Below are positions 37,284 through 63,060 of a DNA stretch of 64,000 nt, piece by piece (within the stretch, counting starts at the first letter, position 1; each line of letters opens with the position of its first letter). Origin of the DNA: Rubricoccus marinus (lineage in GTDB: Bacteria > Bacteroidota > Rhodothermia > Rhodothermales > Rubricoccaceae); NCBI RefSeq assembly GCF_002257665.1, contig NZ_MQWB01000014.1, positions 1 through 64,000 on the forward strand. The letters are read 5' to 3'. Both the position numbers and the translations under genes were made by a program. The notes beneath the pieces were generated by a model. It was not told where the DNA came from, did no database searches, and saw only the letters and a list, made by a program, of their open reading frames with translations.

Positions 37284-37440
37284 GACGACGGGGTGGCTCG
37301 TGTGGTAGAAATGCTTCGTCGTGTGCCGTCCCGGCGAGCTGTCGCAGCAGCTGACGTGGTCGCAGCGCAGGCAGAGCCGGAGGTGGACCCAGCGCAGTCT
37401 CGACTTCAGGTCTTCAGGCACTCCTTGTAGCCCCGGGTCC
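37284..37440 (-). pseudogene. UBP-type zinc-finger protein remnant, frameshifted
   Basis: The segment WVHLRLCLRCDHVSCCDSSP followed by GRHTTKHFYHTSHPVV is the core of a bacterial UBP zinc finger. The N-terminal KECLKT lies one frame away just upstream (about 37410-37440), so the gene carries an indel, and its C-terminus is replaced by the RHH tail at about 37283. The metal-binding Cys and His residues of the visible core are present. Confidence 0.72.
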
Positions 37441-46482: not shown

Positions 46483-47118
46483 TCATGCTTTCCCCATTCC
46501 GGTCCCGTCACCGACGAAGAACCCCTGCCTCCGTCCGGCCTCCTCCCCCGTACCGGGCAAACGCTCCGTGTGAGCGGCGCCCGCGCGGCAGACGGTCTCG
46601 AGCTGCGCGTCCGAGAGGAGGCCCCGGCTCACGAGGTGCTCGGGCAGCGTCGGGCGGTATGCGCAGGGTGGGGCGGTGGCCGCTGCCATCGCGGCCGACT
46701 CGACGAGCCGCGTCGGGTGGGGGCAGGCGCCGGGGACCTTAACACTCGCGCGGTAGGCGTCGAACACGCTCGCCGTGAGCGCACCGGTCTGGGCGACCTC
46801 ACTGGCCGTCTCGACCGCCAGAGGCCGGGTGTCCGCGAAGGGCCACACCGGCGCGACGGCGCGCCGAGGGACGGATCCGCTCCGGGACTCCACCGTCGCC
46901 TTGGGGCGCGGTGTCGAGGCGCCCCCCGCGATGCGTGGTGCGAGGAGGGCGAAGAGGTCGAGTTGTTCGACCTGGGGCTGAGTCGCTGAGGATGCGACGT
47001 GAGATGGAGAAGGGGCCACGGGATTTCCGGCTGGCTGGGCGTGCGGAGACACGACCCGAGACGCTCTCCGGTCGGCTCCGGCCCGCCGCGTTGACGGGCT
47101 CGCCCATCGGCCCGGCAT
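46483..47118 (-). pseudogene. strawberry-notch helicase, N-terminal 211 residues only (second copy)
   Basis: From ATG 47118 the product follows the full helicase at 29027-32599 ([59 protein letters not shown]). It stops inside the Walker A motif: GDGTGMGKA then TGA, where the intact protein has GDGTGVGKG. By eye the DNA is about 85-88 percent identical, too diverged for a recent duplication. Similarity continues upstream of the start to about 47257. A run of 11 G (47122-47132) lies just before the start codon. Confidence 0.85.
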
Positions 47119-47368
47119 CGCGGGGGGGGGGGCATGACCCGCTCCCTCGCGCCCTAGCAGCTCAGGCCACTCACCGGTGCCACACCCCCATCGCCACGTC
47201 CGGGAAAGCGTCGCGGGCGGAGGCCGGACGTTGATTCCTGGACGGGTTACCAGCGCGCCGGAAAGCCTTCTACATCGGTGCGTGTCTGCCCTCCTTTCGC
47301 ATCTCCGAACCGCATCCCACGCCAGAGAGTATGCCCACCACCTCTCTCTGCCCCCTTCCCATCTTCCC

Positions 47369-49501
47369 ATGTCCGACCCGAAGCGCCTCACCGACGACCA
47401 GGGCCACGACGAGGCCGCCAAGGACCGCCACCTCGAACCGTACCGCGAGGACGCCGACGGCGAGTACCTCACGACGAACACCGGTCTCCGCGTCAACCAC
47501 ACCGACGACTCGCTCAAGGCTGGCACCCGCGGACCGACGCTCCTGGAGGACTTCCACCTCCGGGAGAAGATGACCCACTTCGACCACGAGCGCGTCCCCG
47601 AGCGCGTGGTCCACGCCCGGGGCTCGGCGGCCCACGGCTTCTTCCAGGTCTACGAACCCCTCACGGACCTCACGAAGGCCAAGGTCTTCCAGGACCCGTC
47701 GCAGAAGACCCCCGTCTTCGTCCGGTTCTCGACCGTCGTCGGCTTCCGCGGCTCGGCCGACACCGTCCGCGACGTGCGCGGGTGGGCCACGAAGTTCTAC
47801 ACCGAGGACGGCAACTGGGACCTCGTCGGCAACAACATGCCGGTGTTCTTTATCCAGGACGCGATCAAGTTCCCCGACCTCGTCCACGCCATCAAGCCCG
47901 AGCCGGACTCCCAGACGCCGCAGGCCTCGGCCGCCCACGACAACTTCTGGGACTTCATCTCGCTCATGCCCGAGAGCGCGCACACGATCATGTGGGTGCT
48001 CTCCGACCGAGGCCTTCCGCGCTCCTACGCCATGATGGAGGGGTTCGGCGTTCACACCTTCCGCCTGGTCAACGCCGAGGGCAAGGCTCGCTTCGTCAAG
48101 TTCCACTGGCGGCCCGTCCTGGGCACCCACTCGCTCGTGTGGGACGAGACGCAGAAGATCGCCGGCAAGAACCCGGACTTCAACCGGCAGGACCTCTGGG
48201 ACCGAATCGAGGACGGGGATTACCCCGAGTACGAGCTCGGCCTCCAGGTCGTCGAGGAAGAGGACGAGCACGCCTTCGACTTCGACCTCCTCGACCCGAC
48301 CAAGATCATCCCCGAGTCCGAGGTGCCCGTCCGCATCGTGGGCAAGATGACGCTCAACCGCAACCCGGACAACTTCTTCGCCGAGACCGAGCAGGTCGCC
48401 TTCCACCCCGGCCACGTCGTCCCCGGCATCGACTTCACGAACGACCCGCTCCTCCAGGGGCGCCTGTTTTCGTACATCGACACCCAGATCAACCGGTTCT
48501 CGAGCGCCAACTTCAACGAGCTCCCGATCAACCGGCCCGTCGCCGCCGTCCACAACAACCAGCGCGATGGGTTCATGCGGCAGACGATCAACCGCGGCCC
48601 CGTCAACTACTCCCCGAACTCGCGCGGCGGCGGCTGCCCGATGACGGCGCCGGAGTCCGAGGGCGGCTACGTCCACTACGCCGAGCGCGTCGAGGGCCAC
48701 AAGGTCCGCGAGCGGAGCGACAGCTTCAAGGACTTCTTCAGCCAGCCCACCATGTTCTGGCACAGCCTGACCGAGGGCGAACAGGACCGTCTGGTGTCCG
48801 CCGCGCACTTCGAACTCGGGAAAGTCACGATCATGGAGGTCCGCGAGCGGATGGTGACCGACTTCTTCAACCACATCAACCACGACCTCGCTGTGCGTGT
48901 GGCAAAGGGCATCGGGGTCGAGCCGCCGACCGCGTTCGCGGGGACGGAGACGGACAAGCGGATCCCCGAGGTGAGCACCATCAAGCGGGGCCGCTACGAC
49001 ACGATCCAGACCCGCAAGGTGGCCATCCTCCTCGCCGAGGGCTTCGACCACGAGCAACTCATGGCCGTCAAGGAGATGCTCATGGACGGCGGCGCCATGC
49101 CGACGGTGGTCGCTGAAACGCTGGGAATGCTCACGAGCGCGTCCGGCGAGACGGTCGAGGTGGACGAGAGCTACCTCACGACGGCCTCCGTCCTCTTCGA
49201 CGCCTTCTTCGTGCCGGGCGGCGCCGAGAGCGTCGAGGCGCTCAAGGCGCACGGCGACGCGCTCCACTTCGTCCACGAAGGGTACCGACACGCCAAGCCC
49301 ATCGGCGCGACGGGCGAGGGTGTCGAGTTGCTGAGTGCGGCGCGCCTGCCCGACCTCGACGTCTCGGACGGCCCGACGACCTCGGACCGGGGCGTCGTCA
49401 CCGCCCACGACGACCTCGACGGGTTCCCCGGGGCGTTCCGCGAGGCCATCGCGCAGTACCGCCACTTCGACCGGAACAAGAAGGACCAGGTGCCCGCGTA
49501 G
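47369..49501 (+). CDS. katE: clade II large-subunit catalase (HPII type)
   Basis: A 710-residue heme catalase that converts hydrogen peroxide to water and oxygen. The active-site His is in ERVVHARGSAAHGFF, the distal Asn in GNNMPVFFIQD, and the proximal heme-ligand Tyr in RLFSYIDTQINR. The last 150 residues (TRKVAILLAEGFDHEQLMAV; DAFFVPGGAESV) form the DJ-1/GATase-like domain that marks large-subunit catalases. It is complete, starts at ATG 47369, and lies between a helicase remnant and an erythromycin esterase remnant. The DNA-protection theme matches the rest of the cargo. Confidence 0.95.
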   Translation: MSDPKRLTDDQGHDEAAKDRHLEPYREDADGEYLTTNTGLRVNHTDDSLKAGTRGPTLLEDFHLREKMTHFDHERVPERVVHARGSAAHGFFQVYEPLTDLTKAKVFQDPSQKTPVFVRFSTVVGFRGSADTVRDVRGWATKFYTEDGNWDLVGNNMPVFFIQDAIKFPDLVHAIKPEPDSQTPQASAAHDNFWDFISLMPESAHTIMWVLSDRGLPRSYAMMEGFGVHTFRLVNAEGKARFVKFHWRPVLGTHSLVWDETQKIAGKNPDFNRQDLWDRIEDGDYPEYELGLQVVEEEDEHAFDFDLLDPTKIIPESEVPVRIVGKMTLNRNPDNFFAETEQVAFHPGHVVPGIDFTNDPLLQGRLFSYIDTQINRFSSANFNELPINRPVAAVHNNQRDGFMRQTINRGPVNYSPNSRGGGCPMTAPESEGGYVHYAERVEGHKVRERSDSFKDFFSQPTMFWHSLTEGEQDRLVSAAHFELGKVTIMEVRERMVTDFFNHINHDLAVRVAKGIGVEPPTAFAGTETDKRIPEVSTIKRGRYDTIQTRKVAILLAEGFDHEQLMAVKEMLMDGGAMPTVVAETLGMLTSASGETVEVDESYLTTASVLFDAFFVPGGAESVEALKAHGDALHFVHEGYRHAKPIGATGEGVELLSAARLPDLDVSDGPTTSDRGVVTAHDDLDGFPGAFREAIAQYRHFDRNKKDQVPA

Positions 49502-49555: not shown

Positions 49556-49960
49556 ATGCCCGCCTCGTCTCTCCCCGATCGTCCCCTCCCCGTCTCTGGC
49601 GACCCCGCCAGAGGCGAGGTCTACCGCGCGCCTCAAGACGTCGGCGCGCTCGTCGCCGATCACGCCGAAGGGTTCGACCGCGTCGACGACGCCGACCCCG
49701 GATCGGGTCCGGGGCAGGCTCTCGGGCCGATCCTGGACCGCATCGGCGACGCCCACGTCGTCTGCATCGGCGAGGCCAGCCACGGCACCCACGAGTTCTA
49801 CCGCCTGCGTGCGCGCATCACGCAGGCCCTCATTGAGGAGAAAGCCTTTTCGGTCGTCGGCGCCGAGGCCGACTGGCCCGACATGGAGCGCATCGACGCC
49901 TACGTCCGCTGGCGCCAGCCGGACGATAGCGAGTGGGAGGCCTTTGCACTCCTCTCGCGC
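49556..49960 (+). pseudogene. erythromycin esterase family protein, N-terminal remnant
   Basis: The first 135 residues match the family start: VVCIGEASHGTHEFYRLRAR, ITQALIEEKAFSVVGAEADW and PDMERIDAYVRWR, including the GEASHGT motif with its conserved Glu and His. A full protein is about 400-450 residues. At about 49960 the frame loses similarity and runs as unrelated sequence to 50215. The gene sits 54 bases after the catalase and is cut at the junction with the element backbone. Confidence 0.8.
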
Positions 49961-50162
49961 AGCGGCCTGCGAGTCGCGGAGAGGCCCGGGCTCGGCGCCC
50001 GCCGGGCTGGCGGCGCCGTTCACCGCGCGCCGCGCTCGCTCGCAGAGACCGCCAGCGCGGCGCCCCCTGACCAGGGTCGGCTGGGTAGGACGGCCCCGCC
50101 GCGCGCGTTCCCGACGCGGCGGTCGTACACATGCGCGCACCACACCTCGACATCAACTTCTG
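49961..50162. other. cargo/backbone junction
   Basis: Two hundred bases between the broken esterase and the methyltransferase stop, with no assignable gene. A short plus-strand stretch reads RAFPTRRSYTCA in one frame and AVVHMRAPHLDINFC in another, possibly a second small fragment. It marks the right boundary of the cargo mosaic. Confidence 0.4.
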
Positions 50163-51212
50163 TCAGGGCCACCGACGTCCGCCTCGCGTGGATCGGCCCG
50201 CCCGCGTTGGCATGAGCAGATCGACGACGTCAGGCACCGCCTCCACGACGCCTTCCACGCGCGCCCTGGCTGCGCCGGATGAGTGCTCTGGCATCCGCTC
50301 CACGACGAGGAGGCGTGTGCGTACAGAGGTCCCATACGGGCGATAGACCGCGCCGCCCACCTCGACATCGGCGCAGAGGATGAACGGGTCGGCGTCAATG
50401 GTCTGGAAGAACGCCCCGTGCGTCGGCTTGCCGCGTTGGACGGCGGCGCTGAGGACGGCGACGAGCCGTCCGCCCGGCTCCAAGCGACGGAGAGCCTGGA
50501 GTACGTGATCGGTCCCGACCGTCGGGACGCGGCGGGTCCCGAGGCGCCCGGCAGTCTGCGAGAATGGGGGGTTCATCAAGACCACGTCGGCGCGGACGGA
50601 CGGCGGCAGGATGGCGTCGAGGTGGTCGGCGTTTTCGCGTGTGAGCGTCTCGCCCGGGTCCTGGTCTGCCGCCTCCAGTAGGACCGCCAGCAGGTCGGCC
50701 CGTCGGTCAGAGAGTTCATTGGCGTGGACCGAGGCGCCAGAGGCGAGCGCGAAGGTGCAGAGTGCGCCCGTCCCAGCGGATGGCTCCAGGACGCGGTGCC
50801 CCTCCCCTACCCCACTCACCCAGGCGCAGAGCCCGGCGTAGGCGGCGGGCGTCGAGAACTGCTGGTAGTCGTTCTGCTCCGCGGTTCGGCGCGTCTGGCT
50901 GGGTAGGAGCGCCGAGAGCCGCTCGACCTCGGCGAGCGCGTCGCGGGCGCCAGAGGAGCACTCCATCGAGGCCCCTGGCGGGAGGCGCCCGACAGCGCGG
51001 AGCAGGTGGAGGTGGAGCCCGAGTTCAGCGGCGTCGTAGGCGTCGCGGGGCGTGAAGGCGCCCTCGGCGAGCGAGCCGCCATAGGCGCTGGAGGCGAGAG
51101 CGAAGAGGTCGGCGGATGAGAGCGGTTTCGAGGCCGCGACGTACGCTTCGACCTCTCGGGCGAGACGGACGTGGGCGTCTAGAGCCAGTGGAGATGTAGC
51201 CGGATGTGGCAT
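50163..51212 (-). CDS. class I SAM-dependent DNA methyltransferase (element backbone)
   Basis: A 349-residue N6-adenine type methyltransferase. The SAM-binding motif I is RVLEPSAGTGALCTFAL and the catalytic motif IV is VVLMNPPFSQT (the NPPF box); QQFSTPAAYAGL precedes them, as in other phage and plasmid MTases. The N-terminal 90 residues are helical. In related elements this gene stands directly upstream of the strawberry-notch helicase; here the cargo separates them. It starts at ATG 51212, 27 bases after a 17-base inverted repeat. The C-terminus (MPTRAGRSTR) lies at the cargo junction and may be altered. Confidence 0.87.
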   Translation of the reverse strand: MPHPATSPLALDAHVRLAREVEAYVAASKPLSSADLFALASSAYGGSLAEGAFTPRDAYDAAELGLHLHLLRAVGRLPPGASMECSSGARDALAEVERLSALLPSQTRRTAEQNDYQQFSTPAAYAGLCAWVSGVGEGHRVLEPSAGTGALCTFALASGASVHANELSDRRADLLAVLLEAADQDPGETLTRENADHLDAILPPSVRADVVLMNPPFSQTAGRLGTRRVPTVGTDHVLQALRRLEPGGRLVAVLSAAVQRGKPTHGAFFQTIDADPFILCADVEVGGAVYRPYGTSVRTRLLVVERMPEHSSGAARARVEGVVEAVPDVVDLLMPTRAGRSTRGGRRWP

Positions 51213-51239
51213 GGCGCTTTGCGAGATCGGGGCTCGTGA

Positions 51240-51283
51240 GGGGTGGCGACGGCGTGTCACGGGGGTCACGCCGTCGCCACCCC
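51240..51283. promoter_or_regulatory. 17-base perfect inverted repeat upstream of methyltransferase
   Basis: GGGGTGGCGACGGCGTG at 51240-51256 is complementary to 51267-51283, with a 10-base loop. It is the strongest dyad in the window, lies 28 bases upstream of the methyltransferase start, and has no T-tract. It resembles the leader hairpins of the other backbone genes and sits in the 292-base divergent gap shared with the LexA-like gene. Confidence 0.75.
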
Positions 51284-51443
51284 GGTCCCGCATCGACCCA
51301 CCGTTTTCTCAAATGCTGAGACCCGGATCCCCACCGACTATCCATATCTGTAATTCACGGACTTGCGTACCCACGCAGGAACCGTTGGAATCCCTCCATA
51401 AGCGATCCGGCCGGTGCTTTCAGGGCACACGGGACCCAACTTG

Positions 51444-51457
51444 ACACTTCGAGGTGT
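51444..51457 (+). promoter_or_regulatory. candidate operator/promoter of the LexA-like gene
   Basis: ACACTTCGAGGTGT is a 14-base near-palindrome (12 of 14 symmetric) starting within a TTGACA sequence at 51441-51446, about 50 bases before the GTG start at 51505. A repressor of this family would be expected to bind a palindrome over its own promoter. Confidence 0.5.
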
Positions 51458-51504
51458 AAACTGACAACCCCGCCGTCACACTGCGCCCGCCGCGCACCCC
51501 AACC

Positions 51505-52134
51505 GTGCTCTACCCCCGCCAGACCGAGCTCCTTGCGCTCCTCCGCGACGCCGTCCGCCGCGGCGGGGCGGCCCCGAACGGGAGCGAGCTCGCTCGGCGG
51601 ATGGGGCTCGCCAACGTGTCCGCGGTCTACGCCCATCTCCGCAAGCTGGAGGCGGCCGGGTTCGTCGCGCTCACGTCCGGGGGCCGGGGCGTCCCGCTCC
51701 AGATCGAACTCACCGAGTCCGGCGAGCGCCACGGTCGCGCGCGCCCCTGGCCGCGGCTCGGGAAGATCCCCGCCGGGCCGATCACCGACGTGGCGGCCCA
51801 GGCCGACGACTTCGTCGCGACGCTCCCAGACCTCGTGCCCGCGATGCGGCCCGGCGACTACCTCCTGGTCGTCGACGGGGAGTCGATGACGGGCGCAGGG
51901 CTCCTCCCCGGGATGACGCTCGTCATGCGGCCCGACGTGACCCCGACCGACCGCGACGTGTGCTCGGTCTACGTCGAGGGCGAGGGGAATACGCTCAAGC
52001 ACGTCGTCGAGGACGGCTCGTACGTCGTGCTCGTCGCGCGCAACCCCGAGTACCCCGACCAGCGCGTGCCTAAGAGCATGGCCTGCGTCCAGGGCGTCGT
52101 CGTCGCCGCGCTCGCCGTCCAAACCTTCCGCTAA
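51505..52134 (+). CDS. LexA-like S24 family transcriptional repressor
   Basis: A 209-residue protein from GTG 51505. Residues 1-65 form a winged helix (GSELARRMGLANVSAVYAHL, RKLEAAGFVAL). The C-terminal S24 peptidase has the self-cleavage pair Ala90-Gly91 (GKIPAGPITD), the nucleophile in DGESMTGAG (Ser127) and the general base in GNTLKHVV (Lys165). Such proteins repress genes until RecA filaments trigger self-cleavage, so this element is probably induced by DNA damage. It is followed 19 bases later by the sigma factor and kinase genes on the same strand. It could instead be the host lexA, but the location argues for an element regulator. Confidence 0.85.
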   Translation: MLYPRQTELLALLRDAVRRGGAAPNGSELARRMGLANVSAVYAHLRKLEAAGFVALTSGGRGVPLQIELTESGERHGRARPWPRLGKIPAGPITDVAAQADDFVATLPDLVPAMRPGDYLLVVDGESMTGAGLLPGMTLVMRPDVTPTDRDVCSVYVEGEGNTLKHVVEDGSYVVLVARNPEYPDQRVPKSMACVQGVVVAALAVQTFR

Positions 52135-52153
52135 GCCGCCCCCACCACGACCC

Positions 52154-52768
52154 ATGACCTCGACGACCCTCCCGCCCCGCCGCCGAACGATCCGCACGAA
52201 GGCCGACGCCGAACGGGCGGTCTACGCCGACCTCCGGCAGATCGCCCGGAGGCTCCGCTCGCGGGAGAGCCCCGGGATCACGCTCGCGACGACGGGCCTG
52301 GTCCACGAGGCGTACCTCTCGCTCCAGCGGAGCCACGGGGCCGGATACGAGATCGGCTGGAACGCCGAGGTGTCCTTCGGGCTCTACGCCACGGCCATGC
52401 GGAACGTGCTCGTGAGCGCGGCCCGCCGGAGGCGCGCCGACAAGCGAGGCGGCGGGGCGGCCACCGTTCCGATCTCCGAGCACGACGTCCGCGCGGGCGC
52501 CGACCCGACGGGCGTTGAGGGCTGGGCGCACCTCACGGTCGATCTCGACGCGGCGATGGAGCGGGTCCGCCGCGCGAGCGAACGGCTTCACCGGGTCGTC
52601 GAGCTCAAGTTCTTCGCCGGCCTCGAGATCGCCGAGATCGCGGGGGTGACGGGGACGAGCCCGGCCACCGTGAAGCGGGATTGGGAGAAGGCCCGCGCGC
52701 TGCTCTACGCCTACGTCTCCGAGGACTCCACGTCGCAGGAGACCATCGACGCGCCACAAGCCGGATGA
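52154..52768 (+). CDS. ECF-type RNA polymerase sigma factor
   Basis: A 204-residue ECF sigma factor of the subgroup seen in Rhodothermota and Planctomycetota. Region 2 has VYADLRQIARRLRSRES and LVHEAYLSL; region 4 has RLHRVVELKFFAGLEIAEIA followed by a helix-turn-helix (GTSPATVKRDWEKARALL). It lacks a clear anti-sigma partner but its stop overlaps the ATG of a Ser/Thr kinase gene (ATGA), the usual arrangement for this subgroup. It may activate the element's transfer genes; that is inference. Confidence 0.88.
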   Translation: MTSTTLPPRRRTIRTKADAERAVYADLRQIARRLRSRESPGITLATTGLVHEAYLSLQRSHGAGYEIGWNAEVSFGLYATAMRNVLVSAARRRRADKRGGGAATVPISEHDVRAGADPTGVEGWAHLTVDLDAAMERVRRASERLHRVVELKFFAGLEIAEIAGVTGTSPATVKRDWEKARALLYAYVSEDSTSQETIDAPQAG

Positions 52769-53985
52769 CGCAGCCCCCCGCCCCACTCTCGAACGGCGGG
52801 GACGCCGCCGGACCGACCTCTCTCGACACGCTCCGCCTCCTGGTAGAGCAGGCGGCCGAGGGGCACCCCGTCGGCGAGCACGTCCGGGTCGACGGGGTCC
52901 TCCTCGACCTCCTCATGGACGCTGACTCCGCCACCCGGGCGTCGGTGATCGAGACGGCACGAGCGCTCTCGCCCGACCTGGGCGAACGGGCCATGCGTCT
53001 CGCGTGGGCGTTTTCCGCCGCGCCAGAGGCCGACTTCCTCTCGCGCCCGGCGGCAGAATCGTTCGCGGCCTGCGTCGCCGATCCCGCCCTCGCTCCGGGC
53101 GACACGGTGGGCGACTACCGCGTCGTTCGAGAGATCGGGCGCGGCGGCATGGGCGTCGTGTACCTCGCCGAGCGGTCGGACGTAGGGCTCCGGGCCGCGG
53201 TCAAGGTGCTGTCCGGCCCCGTCGTCGCCAGCGGGGTCGAAGACCCCGACGCCCAGCGGTTCTTGGACGAGAGGCGCCATCTCGCGACGCTCTCCCACCC
53301 CAATGTCGCCCGGCTCTACGACGCCGGCCACACGGCAGACGGGCGTCCTTACTTCGCGATGGAGCACGTCGACGGCGAGCCCTTCCCGGCCTACGCCGAC
53401 CGCCGAGGGCTCAGCCTCCGCGACCGGCTCGCGCTCTTCGAGCAGGTCTGCGCGGCCGTCCGGCACGTCCACGGGCGCGGCCTGGTCCACGGCGACGTGA
53501 AGCCCGAGAACGTGCTCGTGGCCGACGACGACGAAGGCCGCCCGGTCGCCAAGCTCCTCGACTTCGGCGTCGCGACCCGCTGGAGATCTTGGGGTGACGG
53601 CGCCAGCGGCGCCCAGTCTTCGACGTGCCAGCCGTTCACGTACGGGTCCGCGGCGCCCGAGATCGTCGCCGGTGGAGAACCGACGCCCGCGTCTGACCTG
53701 TACTCGCTGGGCGTGCTGCTCCGCGAACTGGTCCGGCCACCCGCGAGCCGCAGCGCGCCCCGAGCGGTGGTCGACGCTCTCGAGTCGCTCGTCGAGCGGG
53801 CGACGAGCGCGGAGGTCGGACGCCGCCCCCCGACGGTGGCAGACCTCTCGGCGGAGCTCCGAGCGCTTACGTGGAGACCCCGGCCAGCGCAGCAGGCCGA
53901 ATCGTGGGCCTTCGGAGCCGCGCTCGGGACCCTCGCCGCGCTCGCCGGAGCGGCGGTCTTCGCGCGGCTGCGGGGTCGAGGCTAG
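52765..53985 (+). CDS. Ser/Thr protein kinase with C-terminal membrane anchor
   Basis: A 406-residue Hanks-type kinase. The glycine loop is IGRGGMGVVYLAE, the catalytic lysine AAVKVL, the catalytic loop LVHGDVKPENVLV (about residue 241) and the DFG motif LLDFGVATR, then YGSAAPEIVAGG. A single hydrophobic helix (FGAALGTLAALAGAAVFA) ends the protein, with RLRGRG after it, so the kinase is likely tethered to the inner membrane with the catalytic domain in the cytoplasm. The start overlaps the sigma factor stop. It may phosphorylate the sigma factor or a partner. Its stop is 4 bases inside the convergent RHH gene. Confidence 0.9.
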   Translation: MTQPPAPLSNGGDAAGPTSLDTLRLLVEQAAEGHPVGEHVRVDGVLLDLLMDADSATRASVIETARALSPDLGERAMRLAWAFSAAPEADFLSRPAAESFAACVADPALAPGDTVGDYRVVREIGRGGMGVVYLAERSDVGLRAAVKVLSGPVVASGVEDPDAQRFLDERRHLATLSHPNVARLYDAGHTADGRPYFAMEHVDGEPFPAYADRRGLSLRDRLALFEQVCAAVRHVHGRGLVHGDVKPENVLVADDDEGRPVAKLLDFGVATRWRSWGDGASGAQSSTCQPFTYGSAAPEIVAGGEPTPASDLYSLGVLLRELVRPPASRSAPRAVVDALESLVERATSAEVGRRPPTVADLSAELRALTWRPRPAQQAESWAFGAALGTLAALAGAAVFARLRGRG

Positions 53986-54425
53986 CGCCCCCCGCGGCGT
54001 GTGCCGAAGTGACGGGCCTCCAGCGCGAAGCCCCCTCCCCTGCCCTTCTCGGTCTGCTCCATGTGCCGCCGGAGCGCCTCTTGGACGACGTCGTTCTGGC
54101 TCACGCCGCCCTCCTCGGCCGCCGCCCGGACCTTGGCGCGCATCCACGCCGGGACGTTCCAGTTGCCCTGGACGATCCGCTCGTAGCCCTCCTCGCCCGG
54201 CGCTGGCGCTTCGGGTCGCTGGACGGGCTTGGCCGGCCCGATGGCGTTGCCGGAGGCTGCCTTGCCCGGTGCCGCCTTGCCCGAGGCCGGCTTTCGGGTG
54301 GCCTTCTTCGCCTTCTGCTTTGGGCCAGCCGGTTCAGCTGGGGCCGGGGTGAAGGCGCCCTCGAACGCGGTCCCCTCGGTCGTGGCCGGTTCGATGTTGA
54401 GACGGGGCTTGCGGGATGATGCCAT
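53982..54425 (-). CDS. ribbon-helix-helix-type partner of ParA
   Basis: A 147-residue basic protein. The C-terminal half has a ribbon-helix-helix-like motif (NWNVPAWMRAKVRAAAEEGG, then [16 protein letters not shown]). The N-terminal half is a disordered arm rich in Lys, Ala and Pro (KQKAKKATRKPASGK). It is encoded directly after ParA on the same strand, as ParG-like DNA-binding partners are. CTAG-rich clusters lie just before it and before parA and would be its likely binding sites. A diverged copy of its C-terminus occurs at 37026-37283. Confidence 0.75.
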   Translation of the reverse strand: MASSRKPRLNIEPATTEGTAFEGAFTPAPAEPAGPKQKAKKATRKPASGKAAPGKAASGNAIGPAKPVQRPEAPAPGEEGYERIVQGNWNVPAWMRAKVRAAAEEGGVSQNDVVQEALRRHMEQTEKGRGGGFALEARHFGTRRGGR

Positions 54426-54434: not shown

Positions 54435-54475
54435 GTCTAGACGCTAGATGCTAGGGTGTAGAGTCTACGTCCTAG
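54435..54475. promoter_or_regulatory. CTAG-rich site between parA and RHH gene
   Basis: Four CTAG words in 39 bases (54437, 54444, 54451, 54472) including the palindrome GTCTAGAC at 54435-54442. The cluster sits in the 46-base gap before the RHH gene. The same palindrome occurs once in each of two other clusters nearby. Confidence 0.6.
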
Positions 54476-55257
54476 ATGATTCGGGGCGACGGGCGCGCTT
54501 CGATCTCGTCGGCCAGCGCGGCGTAGTCCTGGGCGGCCGTCGAGGCGCGGTCGTAGAACGGGAGCGGGACGCGCGCCATCTCGGACTCGCGCACGCGGAC
54601 GGTCTCCCGGATGTAGGTCTTGAGCCCCCCCTCCCCGTCCGGGCCTGCCACCTGCTGCGCGACGTACTCGGCGAGGTCGAGGTCGTGGTGGCTCGACACG
54701 TTTACGCGCGTGGCGAAGGCGCCCGAGACGGGCGTCGTCCCGAACCGCTTCGAGAGCTCGACGACGTCGACGAGCCCGTCGAGCGCGCCGCGGCCCGACG
54801 CGACGGGCACGTAGACCTCGTCGGCGGACGCGAGCGTGGCCGTGACGAGCGCCGACGCCTGGGGCGGCGAGTCGATGACGACGAAGTCGTAGTCCGCCTC
54901 GACGGCGTCGAGCAGCGCGACGAGCCGGTTGGCGAGCCGGGCGACGGCCTGGCCCTCGAACTGGACGAGTTGGCGGCTGGCCGGGACGAGGTGGAGCGCG
55001 CCGCCGTTCTCGGCGAGCGGCTTGTCCCAGAGCCCCTCGGGCCGGAGCACGGCGGCGGCGGCTTCGATCTCGCCCTTGAGGTACTGCGCCGCGGCGTGGG
55101 ACGGGTCGAGCCCGGCCGATTTGGTCAGCGTCGCCTGCGGGTCGAGGTCGACCAGCAAGACGCGGCGGCCACGGCGGGCCAGTTCGGCCGCGACGGCGAG
55201 CGAGGAAGTCGTCTTGGACGAGCCGCCCTTGAGGTTGCTGAAGGCGATGACGCGCAC
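54472..55257 (-). CDS. parA: ParA family partition ATPase
   Basis: A 261-residue ParA/MinD-type ATPase. The deviant Walker A motif KGGSSKTT is at residues 10-17, followed by VLLVDLDPQATLTKSAG (Walker A') and FVVIDSPPQA (Walker B). There is no N-terminal HTH, so it is a type Ib-like ParA whose partner would be a small RHH protein, as found next to it. It would bind DNA non-specifically and position the element in the cell. It is likely autoregulated from the CTAG-rich region upstream. Confidence 0.93.
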   Translation of the reverse strand: MRVIAFSNLKGGSSKTTSSLAVAAELARRGRRVLLVDLDPQATLTKSAGLDPSHAAAQYLKGEIEAAAAVLRPEGLWDKPLAENGGALHLVPASRQLVQFEGQAVARLANRLVALLDAVEADYDFVVIDSPPQASALVTATLASADEVYVPVASGRGALDGLVDVVELSKRFGTTPVSGAFATRVNVSSHHDLDLAEYVAQQVAGPDGEGGLKTYIRETVRVRESEMARVPLPFYDRASTAAQDYAALADEIEARPSPRII

Positions 55258-55274: not shown

Positions 55275-55411
55275 CTAGCCCCTAGATACTACCGGCTAGG
55301 GTCTATTGTCGAGAGTCTAGACACTAGTCGTGATACATAGGACTCTCGTGAGCCGTCGCGGCGCAGCGAGGCGCTGAACGGAGCGAACAGAGCCTAGGGT
55401 CTAGATGCTAG
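55275..55411. promoter_or_regulatory. CTAG-rich array upstream of parA and traF-like gene
   Basis: Eight CTAG words in 137 bases (55275, 55282, 55296, 55317, 55324, 55394, 55401, 55408), including GTCTAGAC at 55315-55322. It is the divergent region between parA and the signal peptidase gene. Density and shared palindrome suggest a centromere (parS-like) or operator array for the ParA/RHH pair. Confidence 0.62.
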
Positions 55412-55983
55412 AACGACATGAAGCACAGCGTTGCGAGGACGCCCGTTGGGCGCGCCGCCTGCGTCTATGGTTCGTCGCGGTCGGAGGGGCGGTCCTTGCC
55501 GTGGCTGTGGGGGCGCTGCTCGGCGTCCGCGTCAACACCACGCCCAGCCTCCCGAGAGGGCTCTACGTCGCCTCGGCACTGGGAGAGCAGCCGGTCGCGC
55601 GGGGCGACTTGGTGGCCGCGTGCCCGGACACGGCAGCGGTCCAACGTCTCGGCCGGTACTGGACGAACGGGCGGTGTCCCGGCGGCACCGGTCGCCCCAA
55701 CGGCGTCCGGCCGCTCGCGAAGCCGGTCGCGGGCCTCCCAGGCGACACCGTCCGCGTCGACCGCGGCGGCGTTTGGGTAGGGGGTAGGCTCCTGCCGTCG
55801 AGCGCGCCGCTCGTCCGCGACCGTGCGGGACGACCCGTCCGGCCCGCACTCGGGGTGCGCGTCCTCGGACCTGGCGAGTACTGGCTCCACTCGGGGCGGG
55901 TGCCCACGTCGATCGACTCCCGCTACGCCGGACCCGTCCGCGTCGTCCTCGAACGGCTCCGGCCGCTCTGGACGGAGGACTGA
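55405..55983 (+). CDS. traF: TraF-like S26 signal peptidase (conjugation)
   Basis: A 192-residue S26-type peptidase with one N-terminal membrane segment (about residues 20-42). The serine nucleophile lies in NTTPSLPRGLY and the general-base lysine in KPVAGLPGDTVRV, then GGVWVGG and the C-terminal box SIDSRYAGPV. RP4 TraF matures and cyclises the TrbC pilin, and here trbB and trbC follow, so pilin processing is the likely role. The ATG at 55405 lies within the CTAG array; a later ATG at 55418 is out of frame. Confidence 0.85.
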   Translation: MLERHEAQRCEDARWARRLRLWFVAVGGAVLAVAVGALLGVRVNTTPSLPRGLYVASALGEQPVARGDLVAACPDTAAVQRLGRYWTNGRCPGGTGRPNGVRPLAKPVAGLPGDTVRVDRGGVWVGGRLLPSSAPLVRDRAGRPVRPALGVRVLGPGEYWLHSGRVPTSIDSRYAGPVRVVLERLRPLWTED

Positions 55984-56100
55984 GCCTCGGCGCGGCCGGG
56001 GCGCGCTCTACCCGTCGGACCCGCCCGGCCACCTCTCCGAACGAGGTGACAGCCCGGTGAGCGTAGCCCGAGGCGGGTCCCGACTTCCCCAACCCCGTCC

Positions 56101-57099
56101 GTGCCCACGTCCTCCCGCCCTCAACAGACCCGGACTGGCGCCGACGGGAGCGCCGAAGCGGGGCGCGAGGGCCGCTACCGCGAGCTCATGGAGCGGTACC
56201 TCGGCCCGCGCGTCGTCGAGGCCTTCGCGGACGACGACGTAACCGAGGTCTACGTCAACGGCGACGGCCGGCTGCGGCTCGACACCCACTCACGGGGCAA
56301 GGTGCTCGCGGGCGTCCAGCTCCGCGCCGCCCGCGTCGAGCAGTTCCTGCACGCCGTGGCCGCCTTCCACGGCGACGCGCTCCACGGCGGCACGCCGACC
56401 GTCCAGGCCGAGCTCCCCGACGCCACGTTCGGGGGCGCCCGCCTCCAGGGCTTCCTGTCGCCACTGGCGGAGGCCTCGTGCTTCGTGATCCGCAAGCGGG
56501 CCTCGCGCGTGTTCGACCTCGACAGCTACGTCCCCACCGTGATGACGGCGAAACAGCGGACCGCGCTCCGCGACGCCGTACACGCCCACGAGAACATCCT
56601 GGTCTGCGGAGGCACCGGCTCGGGCAAGACGACGCTCTGCAACGCGCTCTTGAAGGAGATGACCGACCTATTCCCAGAGGAGCGGATCGTGGTCCTGGAG
56701 GACACGGGCGAGCTCCAGTGCGCGGCCGACGACCACCTCCAACTGAGGACCTCCGACGACGTATCGCTCGCCGACCTCGTCCGGCACACGCTCCGCTGCA
56801 CCCCCGACCGGATCGTCGTGGGAGAGGTCCGCGACGAAGCCGCGCTCCACCTCTTGGACGCTTGGGCGACGGGCCACCCCGGAGGCTGCGCGACGCTCCA
56901 CGCGACCACGGCGCTCGGGGCGCTCCACCGGCTCGGGCGGCTCGCGCAGCGGGCCAACGTGCCGCCCCAGCACGAGTTGGTGGCCGAGGCCGTCGGTGTC
57001 GTCCTCGTGATCCAGGGCGGCAACCAGGGGCGGCGCGTGACGGAGCTCGTCCGCGTCGACGGACAGACGGAAGGGACCTACGAGCTCTCGCCCGTCTAA
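56101..57099 (+). CDS. trbB: TrbB conjugative transfer ATPase (VirB11 family)
   Basis: A 332-residue secretion ATPase from GTG 56101. Walker A GGTGSGKTTL is near residue 170; the Asp box EERIVVLEDTGELQ, the Walker B region DRIVVGEVRDEAALHLL and the His box HPGGCATLHATTALGAL are all present. It would form a hexameric ring at the inner face of the type IV secretion channel and power pilus assembly and DNA transfer. It is followed by trbC, trbD and trbE in the standard P-type order. Confidence 0.95.
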   Translation: MPTSSRPQQTRTGADGSAEAGREGRYRELMERYLGPRVVEAFADDDVTEVYVNGDGRLRLDTHSRGKVLAGVQLRAARVEQFLHAVAAFHGDALHGGTPTVQAELPDATFGGARLQGFLSPLAEASCFVIRKRASRVFDLDSYVPTVMTAKQRTALRDAVHAHENILVCGGTGSGKTTLCNALLKEMTDLFPEERIVVLEDTGELQCAADDHLQLRTSDDVSLADLVRHTLRCTPDRIVVGEVRDEAALHLLDAWATGHPGGCATLHATTALGALHRLGRLAQRANVPPQHELVAEAVGVVLVIQGGNQGRRVTELVRVDGQTEGTYELSPV

Positions 57100-57223
57100 G
57101 CGCCGCTGTGAGCGCGACGTCGCCCGGGTGAGCCTCGGACGCGGCCCGCCGCGCTCTCGCGCAGTAGGCGGCCCTCCAGGGCCTCTGGCGAGCCGCCGCG
57201 ACCTCTCACTCCACCCCGCGCCC

Positions 57224-57562
57224 ATGCCCCGCTCGCTCCAGCCCGACCCCAGCCGCTGCGTCCTCGTCGGACGCGCCCTCACGCTCCTCGCCCTCGCGGC
57301 CGTCCTCGCCGACCCCGCCGCGGCCTCTGGCGGCGCGGCCATGCCGTGGGACGGCCCGCTCCAGACCATCGCCGACGCGCTCACCGGCAACACCATCCGC
57401 CTCGTCGCCGTGATCGCGCTCGCCGCCGGCGGCATCGTGTGGGCATTCACCAAGAACGAGGAGGGCGTCAAGCGGATCGGCCAGGCCGTGCTCGGCCTCG
57501 GCGTCGCCATCGGCGCGGCCTCGTTCGCCGCCACGCTCGGCATCTCAGGCTCGACGTTTTGA
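57224..57562 (+). CDS. trbC: TrbC pilin (VirB2 family)
   Basis: A 112-residue pilin precursor. A signal-peptide-like segment (residues 12-35, ending AAAS) is followed by two hydrophobic helices: NTIRLVAVIALAAGGIVWAF and RIGQAVLGLGVAIGAASFAA. Its start at ATG 57224 is 124 bases after the trbB stop, and the stop overlaps the TTG start of trbD by 4 bases (TTGA). It is likely processed by the TraF-like peptidase encoded upstream. Confidence 0.88.
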   Translation: MPRSLQPDPSRCVLVGRALTLLALAAVLADPAAASGGAAMPWDGPLQTIADALTGNTIRLVAVIALAAGGIVWAFTKNEEGVKRIGQAVLGLGVAIGAASFAATLGISGSTF

Positions 57563-57903
57563 GCGCGGTCCGCAGCGGGGGAGGGGGGACGCTCCCCGAG
57601 CGGCCCGTCCACCAGTCGCTCGTCCGGACGCCCCGCTACGCCGGGGTCGACCGGACCTTCCTCGTCTTGGAGGTCACGCTCGTCGTTTGCCTGGGCTACC
57701 TCATGGGCGTCTCGTGGGCGACGGCGGGCGTCGTGCTCCTCACCGTCGGCGTGGTCCACCCGCTCATGGTCCGGCTCTCGGCCGACGACGAGCTCCTGCC
57801 GCACCTCGTCGTGCGGACGCTCACGCAGGCCGACGCCTACGACGCGCTCCCGCACGCCTCTGGCTCGGGCCGCAAGCCGAGCCCGGCCGTTCCCACGCCC
57901 TAG
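57559..57903 (+). CDS. trbD: TrbD (VirB3 family)
   Basis: A 114-residue inner-membrane component of the mating channel. PVHQSLVRTPRYAGVDRTF is followed by two close membrane helices (VLEVTLVVCLGYLMGVSW, GVVLLTVGVVHPLMVRL) and a polar tail. The start codon is TTG at 57559, overlapping the trbC stop. VirB3 proteins bind the VirB4 ATPase, which is encoded next. Confidence 0.87.
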   Translation: MSAVRSGGGGTLPERPVHQSLVRTPRYAGVDRTFLVLEVTLVVCLGYLMGVSWATAGVVLLTVGVVHPLMVRLSADDELLPHLVVRTLTQADAYDALPHASGSGRKPSPAVPTP

Positions 57904-57937
57904 CCGAAACGGCTAGAACCTAGCGTCTAGACCCTAG
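57900..57937. promoter_or_regulatory. CTAG-rich site before trbE
   Basis: Five CTAG words in 38 bases (57900, 57913, 57920, 57927, 57934), with GTCTAGAC at 57925-57932, immediately upstream of the trbE ATG at 57941 and overlapping the trbD stop. It is the third cluster of this kind and lies inside the trb operon. Confidence 0.6.
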
Positions 57938-57940
57938 ATC

Positions 57941-60571
57941 ATGAGTTTGATTTCTGCCGCCGCCGGCTTGGCCGCCGGGTCGCTGGGTGCCACCGCGCTC
58001 GGGAAGCTCCGCGAGCACCGGAAGGCGCCGCGTGCGCTCTCGGACCTGCTCGGCTGGGGCTTCCTGGTGGGGGAGGGGGTCGTGCTCACGAAGGACGGAT
58101 CGTTCCTGGCCGCCTGGCGCGTCCGGGGCCGGGACCTCGCGTCCTCGACGGTGGGCGAGGTCGCCGCGCTCGCCACGCACGTCGGCGCCGCGCTCTCGGC
58201 CTACGGCGACGGCTGGATGATCCACGCCGATGCCGTCCGCCGAGAGGCCGTCGGCTACGCGCTGCCCGAGCGGTGCCACTTCCCCGACCCCGTGAGCGCG
58301 CTCGTCGACGAGACGCGCCGCGCCCGCTACACGGCGACCGCCGAGCACTACGAGACCGAGTCGGTCTTCTCGCTCACCTACACGCCGCCCCCGGGGCTGG
58401 TCGGCCGTCTGCAAAAGGCCGTCGTCGCCGGACGAGACGGGGCGCGCGATGGTTCGCGCGGCGGCGTCGACTGGGACCGGCTCCTCGGCCAGTTCGAGCG
58501 CGAGGCGCGCGGGCTCCGCGACCGCCTCTCGTCGGCCGTCCGGATCGAGCGGCTCGGGAGCGCGGACCTGCTCCGGCACCTCCACGAGTGCCTGACAGGG
58601 CTGCCCCACGCCGTCGGCGTGCCGGGGCGTGGGGCGTACCTCGACTACGCGCTCGCCGACCAGCCCTTCGTCGGCGGCTTCGAGCCGCGCGTGGGCGGCA
58701 AGCACGTCCGCGTCGTCGCCGTGCAGGGCTACCCGAACACCACGACGCCCGGCCTCGCCGACCCGCTGCTCCGGCTGCCGTTCCCGTACCGGTGGAGCCT
58801 GCGGTTCCTGCCGTTCTCGCCAGCGACGGCGACCAAGGTGATCGGCAAGGCCCAGCTCGGGTGGTTCCAGAAGCGGCGCGGCGCGGGCGACTGGGTGAAG
58901 GACATGGCCTCGAAGGAGAAGCGCCAGGACACCGAGATGGACCTCGCCTTCCAGGACGCGAACGCGAGCCAGATGGTGCTCGACGCCGGCGCCGCTCGGG
59001 CCTCGAACACGGGCGGCGAGCTCCGCTTCGGCTACCTCACGGCCTGCGCCGTCGTGATGGCGGAGAGCGGGCGCGCGGCGGACGACCGGGCGGCCGGGCT
59101 CCTCAAGGCCGTCCGCGACCTCGGGTTCACGGGCCGCGTCGAGGACGTGAACGCCGTCGACGCCCTCATTGGCTCCCTGCCGGGCCACGGCCACGCCAAC
59201 CTCCGCCGCCCGGTCTTGTCGACCGACAACCTGGTCGACTTGCTCCCGCTCACGGCCCCGTGGGGCGGGCACCGCGAGGTCCCGAGCGGGCTCTTCCCCC
59301 CGGGCTCGCCGCCGCTTCTGTGGGCGAGGACGGACGGCTCGACGCCGTTCCGCCTCTGCCTCCACGAGGGCGACGTGGGCCACACGCTCGTCGTCGGCGC
59401 GACGGGCGCGGGCAAGTCCGTGCTCGTGGGCCTGATTCTAGCACAGTGGCGCCGCTACGCCGGAGCGCGGACGGTCACGTTCGACGTCGGCTACAGCCAC
59501 TACGTCTCGGGCCGCGCGATGGGCGCGGCGCACTACGACCTTGCCGGGCCTCTGGCAGCAGGCCGCCCGGTCGAGATGCAGCCGCTCCGCGACGTGGACC
59601 GGCCCGAGGTGCGGACGTGGGCCGTCGACTGGGTCGAGTCCCTCGTCGAGCTCCAGGGCGAGCGGCTCTCGCCCGACGAGCGGGGGCGCCTGGCCCACGC
59701 CGTCGGCCTGCTGGCGGAGAGCCCGCCCGAGGACCGGACGCTGACGGCGCTCCTGGTCGGGCTCGGCGACGAGCGGCTCCGGGCGCTCGTCCGGCCCTAC
59801 ACGCTCGAAGGCCCGTACGGCCAGCTCTTCGACGCCGACCGCGACTCCTTCGGGGCCGGTAACAGCCCCAGCAGTGGAGAGGAAGCCGTCCGGCACCAGG
59901 TCGTCGAGCTCTCGCACTTGGTCGGGATGTCGGACCGCGTGCTCGTGCCGGCGCTGACGTACCTCTTCCGCCGCGTCGAGGAGGGCCTGGACGGCTCGCC
60001 GACGCTCATCGTGATCGAGGAGGCCTGGGCGGCGCTCATGCACGGCCGCTTCGCCGACCGCCTGAGGCAGTGGCTCCTGACCCTCCGCAAGCGGAACGCG
60101 GCCGTCGTGGTCGTGGCCCACAGCCCGGCCCAGTTCCGCGACCCCGGCGTCAAGGGCGCGCAGCTCCTCGTCGAGAGCTGCCCGACGCGGATCTTCCTGC
60201 CCAACCCCGACGCCGCCGAGCCCGACACGGCGGCGCTCTACCGCTGGCTGGGTCTCAACGAGGCCGAGGTGTCTCGGCTCGCGCGGGCACGGAAGAAGCA
60301 GGACTACTACGTCCGCTCGCCGTCGGGCGCCCGGACGTTCGACCTCGCGCTGGGGCCGCTGGAGATGGCGTTTCTGGGCACGCTCCCCGGCCGCTCAGCC
60401 GACGAGACCGTCCGCGAAGCCGCGCGGCTGGCGGACGCCGACCCTGAGAAATGGCTGACCGAGTGGCTCCGTCTCTGCGGCCTCGATGCCGAAGCCGACG
60501 CGCTGGAGCGTTCGTATCCGGTTCGTCTTGGCCCATGCGCGAGCGACGCTACCGCGCCGACGCGGCGCTGA
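57941..60571 (+). CDS. trbE: TrbE conjugative transfer ATPase (VirB4 family)
   Basis: An 876-residue VirB4-type ATPase. The N-terminus has a short hydrophobic segment; the N-terminal VirB4 domain covers residues 1-400. The ATPase has Walker A VVGATGAGKSVLVGLIL (about residue 486) and Walker B PTLIVIEEAWAAL (about 688), followed by the conserved LRKRNAAVVVVAHSPAQFRD. It energises pilus assembly and DNA transport. Its last 23 bases overlap the convergent winged-helix gene of the toxin-antitoxin-like pair. Confidence 0.95.
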   Translation: MSLISAAAGLAAGSLGATALGKLREHRKAPRALSDLLGWGFLVGEGVVLTKDGSFLAAWRVRGRDLASSTVGEVAALATHVGAALSAYGDGWMIHADAVRREAVGYALPERCHFPDPVSALVDETRRARYTATAEHYETESVFSLTYTPPPGLVGRLQKAVVAGRDGARDGSRGGVDWDRLLGQFEREARGLRDRLSSAVRIERLGSADLLRHLHECLTGLPHAVGVPGRGAYLDYALADQPFVGGFEPRVGGKHVRVVAVQGYPNTTTPGLADPLLRLPFPYRWSLRFLPFSPATATKVIGKAQLGWFQKRRGAGDWVKDMASKEKRQDTEMDLAFQDANASQMVLDAGAARASNTGGELRFGYLTACAVVMAESGRAADDRAAGLLKAVRDLGFTGRVEDVNAVDALIGSLPGHGHANLRRPVLSTDNLVDLLPLTAPWGGHREVPSGLFPPGSPPLLWARTDGSTPFRLCLHEGDVGHTLVVGATGAGKSVLVGLILAQWRRYAGARTVTFDVGYSHYVSGRAMGAAHYDLAGPLAAGRPVEMQPLRDVDRPEVRTWAVDWVESLVELQGERLSPDERGRLAHAVGLLAESPPEDRTLTALLVGLGDERLRALVRPYTLEGPYGQLFDADRDSFGAGNSPSSGEEAVRHQVVELSHLVGMSDRVLVPALTYLFRRVEEGLDGSPTLIVIEEAWAALMHGRFADRLRQWLLTLRKRNAAVVVVAHSPAQFRDPGVKGAQLLVESCPTRIFLPNPDAAEPDTAALYRWLGLNEAEVSRLARARKKQDYYVRSPSGARTFDLALGPLEMAFLGTLPGRSADETVREAARLADADPEKWLTEWLRLCGLDAEADALERSYPVRLGPCASDATAPTRR

Positions 60572-62081: not shown

Positions 62082-62298
62082 AATCGAACCCGGTGCACCT
62101 CGTCTCTCGACTCGCTCTCCCCACCCCGATGGGGTCGGCCTCAGTGGGCGGCCTCGAGTCCTACGCCCTGGTCGGCTGGCGCAGCACGTCCAGGGGTGAG
62201 CGCATCGACCACGCGCAAGGCCTCGGAGTCCCGCGTGAGCCGCCAGAGGCCCGGACCGCGCTCTCGGGGTGACGCCACTCCCACGAGCCCCCAGAACC

Positions 62299-63060
62299 AT
62301 GCTCCGTCCCAGCCTGTCCCTGCGCCTCGCGCGCATCCTCCGCCTCCGGCGCTCCGTCGGCCTCGCGGCGATGCTCGGCCTCGTCGCGCTCGCGCCCGCC
62401 CAGGAGGCGAAGGCGCAGTGGGCCGTCGTCGACCCGGCCCACATCGCGAAGTCGGTCATGAACGGCCGCCAGATCGTCCAGCAGCTCGCCGCCCAGCGCG
62501 ACCAGCTCCGGGCCTTCCGCGACAACGTCCGCAAGCTCCGGTCCTACAACGTCCGCGACGTGACGGGCTTCATGTCGCACCTCGACCGGACGATCGCCTC
62601 CGGCGGCCAGCTCGCCTACTCGTCGGCCAACCTCGGGCGCGAGTTCGACCAGGCGTACCGCTCGTTCGACCTCGCCGACCCGACGGCCGAGATCGGGCGC
62701 GTGCTCGAGAACCAGCTCTCGGGCTCGCTCAACACGCTCCGAGCGCTCCGCGAGCACGCGACGCAGCTCCAGGCGTCGCGCCGCGACCTCCAGGGGTTCC
62801 AGAGCCAGGTCCGCTCGGCGACGAGCGCCCAGCAGGTCGCCGAGCTCCAGGGGACCATCCAGGCCTACCAGGCGCAGGAGACCCAGATGCTCCGGCAGGT
62901 CATGATGCTCCAGGTCGACCAGGCGGCGCGCGCCGAGGCGAGCGAGGCGGCCGTGCAGGCCTACGCCCGCGAGGTCGGCAAGGCGCAGACGGCGCGGAGC
63001 CGCGACTACGCCCGCCGGATGGGCGGTCGGGACTACGGCCGCGGCCCGGTCATCGAGTAG
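62299..63060 (+). CDS. trbJ: TrbJ-like conjugal transfer protein
   Basis: A 253-residue periplasmic protein. A signal peptide with a basic start and hydrophobic core (SVGLAAMLGLVALAPAQEAKAQ) ends near residue 40. The mature part is nearly all alpha-helical and coiled-coil-like, with many Gln and Arg residues (RQIVQQLAAQRDQLRAFRDN; ALREHATQLQASRRDLQGFQ), as in VirB5/TrbJ proteins. VirB5-type proteins are minor pilus-tip components. It stands after trbE as in P-type systems, but is separated from it by the inserted pair at 60549-62046. Confidence 0.82.
   Translation: MLRPSLSLRLARILRLRRSVGLAAMLGLVALAPAQEAKAQWAVVDPAHIAKSVMNGRQIVQQLAAQRDQLRAFRDNVRKLRSYNVRDVTGFMSHLDRTIASGGQLAYSSANLGREFDQAYRSFDLADPTAEIGRVLENQLSGSLNTLRALREHATQLQASRRDLQGFQSQVRSATSAQQVAELQGTIQAYQAQETQMLRQVMMLQVDQAARAEASEAAVQAYAREVGKAQTARSRDYARRMGGRDYGRGPVIE

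Follow-up and report, generated by a model that had tools for sequence, protein, structure and literature searches.

In SXT/R391, the lambda cI-related repressor SetR, thought to be inactivated by the SOS response, controls the activator SetCD, which acts on several transfer promoters (PMC4344509, in the sections of the account available). A different mode of control is described for ECF43, a group of extracytoplasmic function (ECF) sigma factors that typically lack the acidic motif of region 2.2 and carry a Thr there that a neighbouring kinase phosphorylates. EcfK–PknS of Xanthomonas citri and EcfP–PknT of Vibrio each pair a Hanks-type kinase with a sigma that has a phospho-Thr at the place of the acidic motif, and the type VI secretion system of X. 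citri is under the control of EcfK (PMC13147305 and PMC8999054, likewise in the sections available). Here we analyse a 64,000-nucleotide stretch of Rubricoccus marinus DNA (the window; bases 1–64000 of the 90,452-base contig C14, in a genome of 4.43 Mb and 15 contigs), where genes for a LexA-like repressor, an ECF sigma factor and a Hanks-type kinase follow one another beside conjugation genes. On balance, its sequence makes it probable that this three-gene module is a transfer switch of a conjugative plasmid family, released by DNA damage or by entry into a new host. If this is true, two known designs are joined in it, one in which transfer genes are guarded by a repressor of the SOS type and one in which a kinase activates a sigma factor.

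An earlier sequence-only reading had placed a repressor, an ECF sigma factor and a kinase in adjacent genes on one strand. Family profiles confirm all three (Table 1), and the same neighbourhood recurs in five copies, found at E values up to 1e-60 in 3 of the 114 genomes of the order. Two copies belong to the genome itself, on C14 and on C15 (65,283 bases), and three to two other species (contig C7 of G006; contigs C44 and C26 of G039). The C15 copy is complete, with a repressor 78%, a sigma 48% and a kinase 53% identical over the matched parts, and several trb proteins of G039 are 96–98% identical to their C14 counterparts. As far as the contigs reach, all five copies have a methyltransferase gene pointing leftward and the lexA-like, sigma and kinase genes pointing rightward, followed by parA and a small protein gene and then by traF and trb genes; the parA pair points leftward in four copies and is inverted to rightward in C15. 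The lexA–sigma gaps are 19, 43, 55, 24 and 49 nucleotides. The overlap of sigma and kinase genes that had been reported earlier measures 4 bases, from the kinase ATG at 52765, and is found in four of the five copies, the C15 genes being separated by 1 nucleotide with the first ATG as start. Neither a terminator-like site nor a match to the sigma-70 promoter consensus was found in 51213–54100. It is very likely from this layout that lexA, sigma and kinase form one operon under the repressor.

The repressor is composed of a LexA DNA-binding domain and an S24 peptidase domain. We call the gene LexA-like because its score is under the NCBIfam LexA equivalog cut-off (79.1 versus 110.95 bits). The Ala-Gly, Ser and Lys residues that had been described as intact are so: in an alignment with Escherichia coli LexA, Ala90–Gly91 falls on the cleavage site and Ser127 and Lys165 on the catalytic pair, and the Ala-Gly site and Ser/Lys pair are kept in all five module repressors. 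Upstream of the operon, a 42-base block aligns in every copy between flanks that align poorly. It contains two dyads, TTNNCAC-N6-GTGNNAA (51441–51460) and TGACR-N7-YGTCA (51462–51478), and the innermost half-site pair of the second is A-T in C15, G-C in G006 and unpaired in the other three copies. The block is present once per plasmid stretch, and its 25-base core, allowing up to 3 mismatches, has two matches in 4.43 Mb, one each on C14 and C15 (reversed control, 0). The repressor therefore most likely governs its own operon, and probably that operon alone. Because the block stands solely before that operon, the sigma and kinase are placed downstream of the repressor; the divergent methyltransferase gene is a possible second target. 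A wide SOS regulon was rejected on the same count of core operators, and weaker sites may exist.

The genome contains recA. Its chromosomal LexA family member (L069, C1:3430684–3431313) scores over the family cut-off, but Ser, Lys and the cleavage-site Ala are replaced, suggesting that this protein may be unable to cut itself. The plasmid copies may therefore be the only intact LexA-like repressors of the genome, a statement that covers the LexA family, since UmuD-like S24 proteins on C10 and C11 and further chromosomal S24-type matches exist. Our residue table covers 30 LexA-like loci, of which one, in G023, yielded no usable protein; 25 of the other 29 have intact residues (exceptions: G000, G001, G005 and G013), and LexA is also degenerate in the examined loci of G001, G005 and G013. 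The UmuD-like genes (C10:25962–26318 and C11:131558–131920) adjoin UmuC-like genes, and both contigs carry a closely similar methyltransferase gene; with a UmuC-like gene as neighbour, the LexA-like genes of C10 and C11 were rejected as members of the same system (Umu labels by eye). Two scans for repressor relatives in GTDB r220 contigs gave none that was confirmed. Against 72,556 plasmid records, the repressor has 67 matches, all below 60% identity (33–37% among the 20 listed), and the sigma factor 6, also all below 60% (33–42%).

The sigma factor is of the TIGR02999/PF07638 kind. TIGR02999, scored for two of the five copies, gives 131.9 bits for the C14 protein (cut-off 126.15) and 108.9 bits, under the cut-off, for that of C15. 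Region 2.2 has no DxxD acids, and ATTG, RTTG or GTTG stands there in all five plasmid sigmas; T47 is invariant among 9 aligned sigmas, four of them chromosomal. By this Thr motif the protein is provisionally classed as an ECF43-type sigma. A Hanks-type kinase gene is adjacent in all five copies, and the glycine loop, Lys, HGD catalytic motif and DFG are kept in the 4 plasmid kinases aligned. It is likely that the kinase activates the sigma via Thr47. The earlier description of a membrane kinase needs correcting in that a tail anchor is all there is: the C14 protein has one C-terminal hydrophobic stretch, at residues 382–400, followed by 6 residues, and in all five plasmid kinases the best such stretch lies at the extreme C-terminus with 3–10 residues beyond it. 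A sensor domain beyond the membrane would not fit behind such an anchor, so the natural input would be the repressor. Among the chromosomal kinase matches with a locus, 15 of 18 sit in open frames of 832–1011 codons. A remnant copy of the C-terminus of this kinase (65% identity over 54 residues) lies at window 36830–37430, adjoined by a remnant of the small protein gene (by eye); another plasmid of the family may once have recombined here.

Alignment of the regions upstream of trbB, trbC and trbJ hinted at a repeat, which a scan defined as TGAGCC and CGCGCT 15 bases apart. The shared sigma-type promoter that the sequence-only reading had proposed to seek upstream of the trb genes thus has a candidate, present with a fixed spacer before trbB, trbC, trbJ, trbF and the mobilization genes. 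A scan of four plasmids took in C14 together with 40 kb of G006, 20 kb of G039 C44 and 40 kb of G039 C26; exact matches number 17 at spacer 15, 2 at spacer 19 and 0 at the 14 other spacers of 8–23; first-order Markov simulations gave a mean of 0.18 and a largest value of 1 over 60 runs. Fifteen of the 17 sites are outside predicted genes, and of the two others one is the trbJ site of G039, which a predicted frame overlaps, and one a match in G006 that looks like chance. Module contigs hold 8 of the 10 exact matches in G039 (two contigs; control 4) and 6 of the 11 in G006 (control 5). With one mismatch allowed, the R. marinus genome has 25 matches against 14 for the reversed control; the chromosome contig holds 19 of them, C14 holds 6 and C15 none. 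A de novo search on C14 recovered the pattern in 7 of 7 units, with an optimistic p-value, the regions having been drawn after the motif was known and the M23 and rep units included because of it. No motif within two mismatches was found before lexA or sigma. We rejected a dimer site, as the motif is non-palindromic and oriented into the gene. It is quite likely, from its distribution, that the motif is the promoter of the plasmid sigma.

C15 has 0 exact copies of TGAGCC-N15-CGCGCT. In each of the four plasmids with the motif, the region 4 helix of the sigma factor reads TSPATVKRDWEKAR; that of C15 reads TTRTVRRDWVKAQ, and this contig has two exact copies of TGTCCG-N15-CGCGCC, one before trbB and one before trbJ, whose match extends to TGTCCGGTGG-N10-TCGCGCCTCTG. 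This variant occurs once more with one mismatch on the mobilization (nikA–relaxase) side, and in a de novo search on C15 a pattern akin to it came up in 4 of the 7 units, with a p of only ~1e-5 before correction. Across the plasmids examined, the motif tracks the sigma type. Because it is tied to sigma type and stands before transfer genes, the sigma probably drives transfer, and the earlier suggestion that sigma and kinase switch on transfer gains support, the operator placing both under the repressor. The C14 and C15 repressors are identical over the part of the recognition helix that was compared, and their operator cores agree at 23 of 25 bases; either repressor should therefore silence both operons, and one damage event free both. 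The sigma helices have diverged along with the transfer promoters, so that each sigma would fire its own transfer genes only. We propose tentatively, with the balance leaning slightly against it, that C14 and C15 share a common alarm with private responses, and form a naturally evolved orthogonal, phosphorylation-controlled sigma–promoter pair for conjugation.

TrbE relatives are present in 22 of the 114 genomes, and as controls we took the five with the highest TrbE scores (G004, G007, G008, G029 and G052) among the 19 without the module. In the five control stretches (the G008 contig is 7.4 kb), the repressor is absent, and no motif within one mismatch was found before the trb genes. Exact matches in all number 2 in G004 (control 9) and 3 in G007 (control 5), and the trb contigs of both genomes are free of them. 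No relative of the sigma–kinase pair was found in the stretches taken from G007, G029 and G052. G004 has, like the module, a PF07638-type sigma and an adjacent Ser/Thr kinase within homologous trb genes, between traF and trbB. It differs in that no LexA-like gene is near, the sigma is 34% identical and under the TIGR02999 cut-off, the kinase has 934 residues, including a tetratricopeptide repeat stretch just under the family cut-off, and the upstream sequences are others. In G008, the first part of the contig is an incomplete kinase gene of similar kind, ahead of trbB, with its sigma out of view. A ~40-base block before trbB in G004 (L130) recurs before another trb-region gene, and G008 (L129) has the block before trbB; it is possibly the promoter of their own sigma, and two places in G004 prove little. 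By sequence, a kinase-linked ECF sigma is found beside conjugation genes in two arrangements, with a LexA-like gene in one. Such control had been called unusual for conjugation in the earlier reading; a sigma and kinase of this kind next to trb genes are not confined to the module.

The proposed mechanism builds on the operon arrangement, the catalytic residues, the single operator block per plasmid, the Thr motif and the promoter-like motif tied to sigma type, all observed in the sequence. The LexA-like protein would repress its own lexA–sigma–kinase operon from the block at 51440–51481. RecA filaments, formed upon DNA damage or on single-stranded DNA entering a new host, would cause the repressor to cut itself at Ala90–Gly91, and the operon would be expressed. 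For want of the acidic residues of region 2.2, the newly made sigma would be inactive, and the tail-anchored kinase, translated from the same message, would phosphorylate Thr47. The active sigma would then direct RNA polymerase to the TGAGCC-N15-CGCGCT promoters before trbB, trbC-D-E, trbJ, trbF-G-I-coupling protein and M23-nikA-relaxase. The one-mismatch sites before traF and rep would also be used, and the transfer machinery would be made all at once.

Several observations weigh against this interpretation or weaken its support. Cleavage, RecA dependence, phosphorylation, promoter recognition and transfer induction are steps that we infer from sequence. Shared plasmid ancestry accounts for part of the 17 motif matches, so that recurrence before unrelated genes within C14 is the stronger fact. 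The test on the window alone is weaker (3 matches, a number attained by 1 of 100 shuffles, whose mean is 0.73), the G006 C7 match at 109237 falls inside a coding frame, and exact matches elsewhere in G006 (5) and G039 (2) are at about the control level. The C15 variant was chosen by inspecting the upstream regions of C15 itself, and when one mismatch is allowed it has 4 matches at spacer 15, the fourth inside a gene, versus 1–5 at other spacers; traF, trbC and trbF of C15 have no clear site. In the second operator dyad, one position is paired in just two of the five copies. The trb genes of G007, G029 and G052 lack the pair, so such transfer genes can do without a sigma–kinase. Clusters of CTAG repeats near parA, traF and trbE suggest a second control layer.

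These clusters, possibly partition centromere or operator sites, lie at window 54437–54472, 55275–55408 and 57900–57934, at C14:66860–66882 and at C15 39079–39172. Those on C14 are between or near the partition and trb genes, as expected if the partition pair (ParA and the ribbon-helix-helix-like protein) mainly governs transfer through CTAG repeats, in a manner that we take to be KorB-like, with the lexA operon having a secondary part. We consider this quite unlikely, because the clusters flank few trb units and leave the directional bipartite motif unexplained; both may act together. The motif could also be a real promoter read by a host sigma, with the plasmid sigma and kinase serving another purpose, given that the chromosome holds 8 further relatives of the plasmid sigma at E <1e-20, several beside large kinases. 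This is improbable: C14 and C15 are in one genome, yet TGAGCC-N15-CGCGCT is on C14 only, the motif follows the helix of the plasmid sigma, and the chromosomal matches are near the control (19 versus 14 for the whole genome).

The location of the operator block in an intergenic region shared with the divergent methyltransferase gene would fit a repressor directed mainly at that gene, with sigma and kinase as bystanders. The block is separated from lexA by 23 bases and from the methyltransferase start by ~150–230 bases, depending on the start chosen, and the similar methyltransferase genes of C10 and C11, with UmuD/UmuC-like neighbours, have no such block, which makes this explanation very improbable. 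A further alternative retains the switch and changes the trigger from DNA damage in the donor to entry into a naive, repressor-free cell. In its favour, the repressor is element-specific, and for SXT a similar effect of entry has been discussed (PMC4344509, in the sections available). Entry alone is nevertheless unlikely, as the cleavage site and catalytic pair, which it would not need, are kept in all five copies; judging by these residues, DNA damage is fairly likely to be the trigger of the transfer switch.

C14 contains genes for a Rep_3 initiator, ParA, a NikA-like protein followed by a relaxase-like gene, a coupling protein and trb proteins, that is, the transfer, mobilization, replication and partition genes by which P-type (trb) plasmids are recognized. 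By family, the trb set comprises TraF, T2SSE-type (TrbB-like), TrbC, VirB3-like, TrbE, TrbJ, VirB8/TrbF, CagX/TrbG and TrbI proteins; several transfer-gene scores fall under NCBIfam cut-offs, and the relaxase domain was scored on the C15 homolog only. Judged by this gene content, C14 represents all or much of a conjugative plasmid. A terminal overlap of C14 was looked for and none was found, so circularity is unsupported.

Table 1. Features of the module, its neighbours and the putative regulon (window coordinates, or contig coordinates where C14 is given)
Feature	Position	Strand	Remarks
Methyltransferase-like gene, divergent from lexA, module neighbour	50163..51212, possible start 51293	-	
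Putative operator/promoter block of lexA–sigma–kinase operon	51440..51481	+	
LexA-like, probably self-cleaving repressor, 209 aa	51505-52134	+	GTG start; LexA_DNA_bind 39 bits, Peptidase_S24 56.1 bits
ECF sigma with ECF43-type TT motif (predicted phospho-acceptor position T47), 204 aa	52154..52768	+	PF07638; TIGR02999
Hanks-type Ser/Thr kinase, 406 aa, predicted tail-anchored, no ectodomain	52765..53985	+	Pkinase 117.2 bits; likely ATG 52765
Small ribbon-helix-helix-like protein, module neighbour	53982..54425	-	label by eye, no family match
parA, module neighbour	54472..55257	-	
TGAGCC-N15-GGCGCT before traF	55349..55375	+	1 mismatch
traF-like conjugal signal peptidase, putative regulon member	55405..55983	+	TIGR02771 89.8 bits (cut-off 100.25)
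TGAGCC-N15-CGCGCT before trbB	55981..56007	+	
trbB-like ATPase, putative regulon member	56101..57099	+	PF00437; name from place in trb run
TGAGCC-N15-CGCGCT before trbC-trbD-trbE	57129..57155	+	
trbC pilin, putative regulon member	57224..57562	+	PF04956
trbD/VirB3-like, putative regulon member	57559..57903	+	PF05101
trbE-like ATPase, putative regulon member	57941..60571	+	PRK13873 734.3 bits (cut-off 1020)
TGAGCC-N15-CGCGCT before trbJ	62236..62262	+	
trbJ-like, putative regulon member	62299..63060, possible start 62269	+	TIGR02780 46.5 bits (cut-off 100.55)
Exact motif before trbF	C14:65923		
Exact motif before M23 peptidase, NikA, relaxase-like run	C14:86188	other strand	
Motif before rep	C14:86815		one mismatch

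Two leftward genes with no Pfam matches lie at window 60549–62046, between trbE and trbJ, a slot occupied by other genes on C15, G006 and G039 and perhaps a cargo hot spot. By eye, a long helicase gene at 29027–32500 resembles a C15 gene of the strawberry-notch type; a truncated further piece, from the N-terminal part of such a gene, lies ~14 kb away at 46483–47526. Glyoxalase-, quinone oxidoreductase- and catalase-like genes (labels by eye) are cargo between the helicase and the methyltransferase, which adjoin each other on C15. A fragment at 49556–50215 resembles the start of an erythromycin esterase, matching about the first tenth of the profile just under the family cut-off.

In the open-access literature, which leaves most subscription journals outside, we found no paper on LexA, an ECF sigma factor and a conjugative plasmid together, none on a plasmid sigma with a Hanks-type kinase in conjugation and none on a conjugative plasmid in Rhodothermales. 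Papers on SOS and conjugation do exist, and one paper contains both 'ECF43' and 'promoter motif'. The concrete candidate promoter sequence makes the claim open to a reporter test and gives direct access to the question of which DNA such sigmas recognize; two matched sigma–promoter pairs of different specificity would be on offer.

The module resembles described systems in its parts. The repressor shares with LexA the two domains, the cleavage and catalytic residues and a dyad before its own gene, and differs in its score under the equivalog cut-off and in an operator core that is found before its own operon only. EcfK–PknS and EcfP–PknT are chromosomal. Like them, as far as the available sections describe them, the module has an ECF sigma without the usual acidic motif, a Thr in its place and a Hanks-type kinase partner. 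No LexA-like partner is mentioned in those sections, whereas the module is plasmid-borne with a LexA-like gene first, its kinase lacks an ectodomain and its apparent targets are conjugation genes. With SetR–SetCD, as presented in the part of the source at hand, it shares a repressor that guards a dedicated activator of several transfer promoters (PMC4344509). SetCD is an FlhDC-like activator of host-polymerase promoters, whereas in the module sigma and kinase genes, and not an FlhDC-like activator, come after the repressor, so that the activator is a sigma with its own kinase; the repressor is LexA-like and encoded in the same operon as the activator. By analogy, the module would work like SetR–SetCD while standing outside that family.

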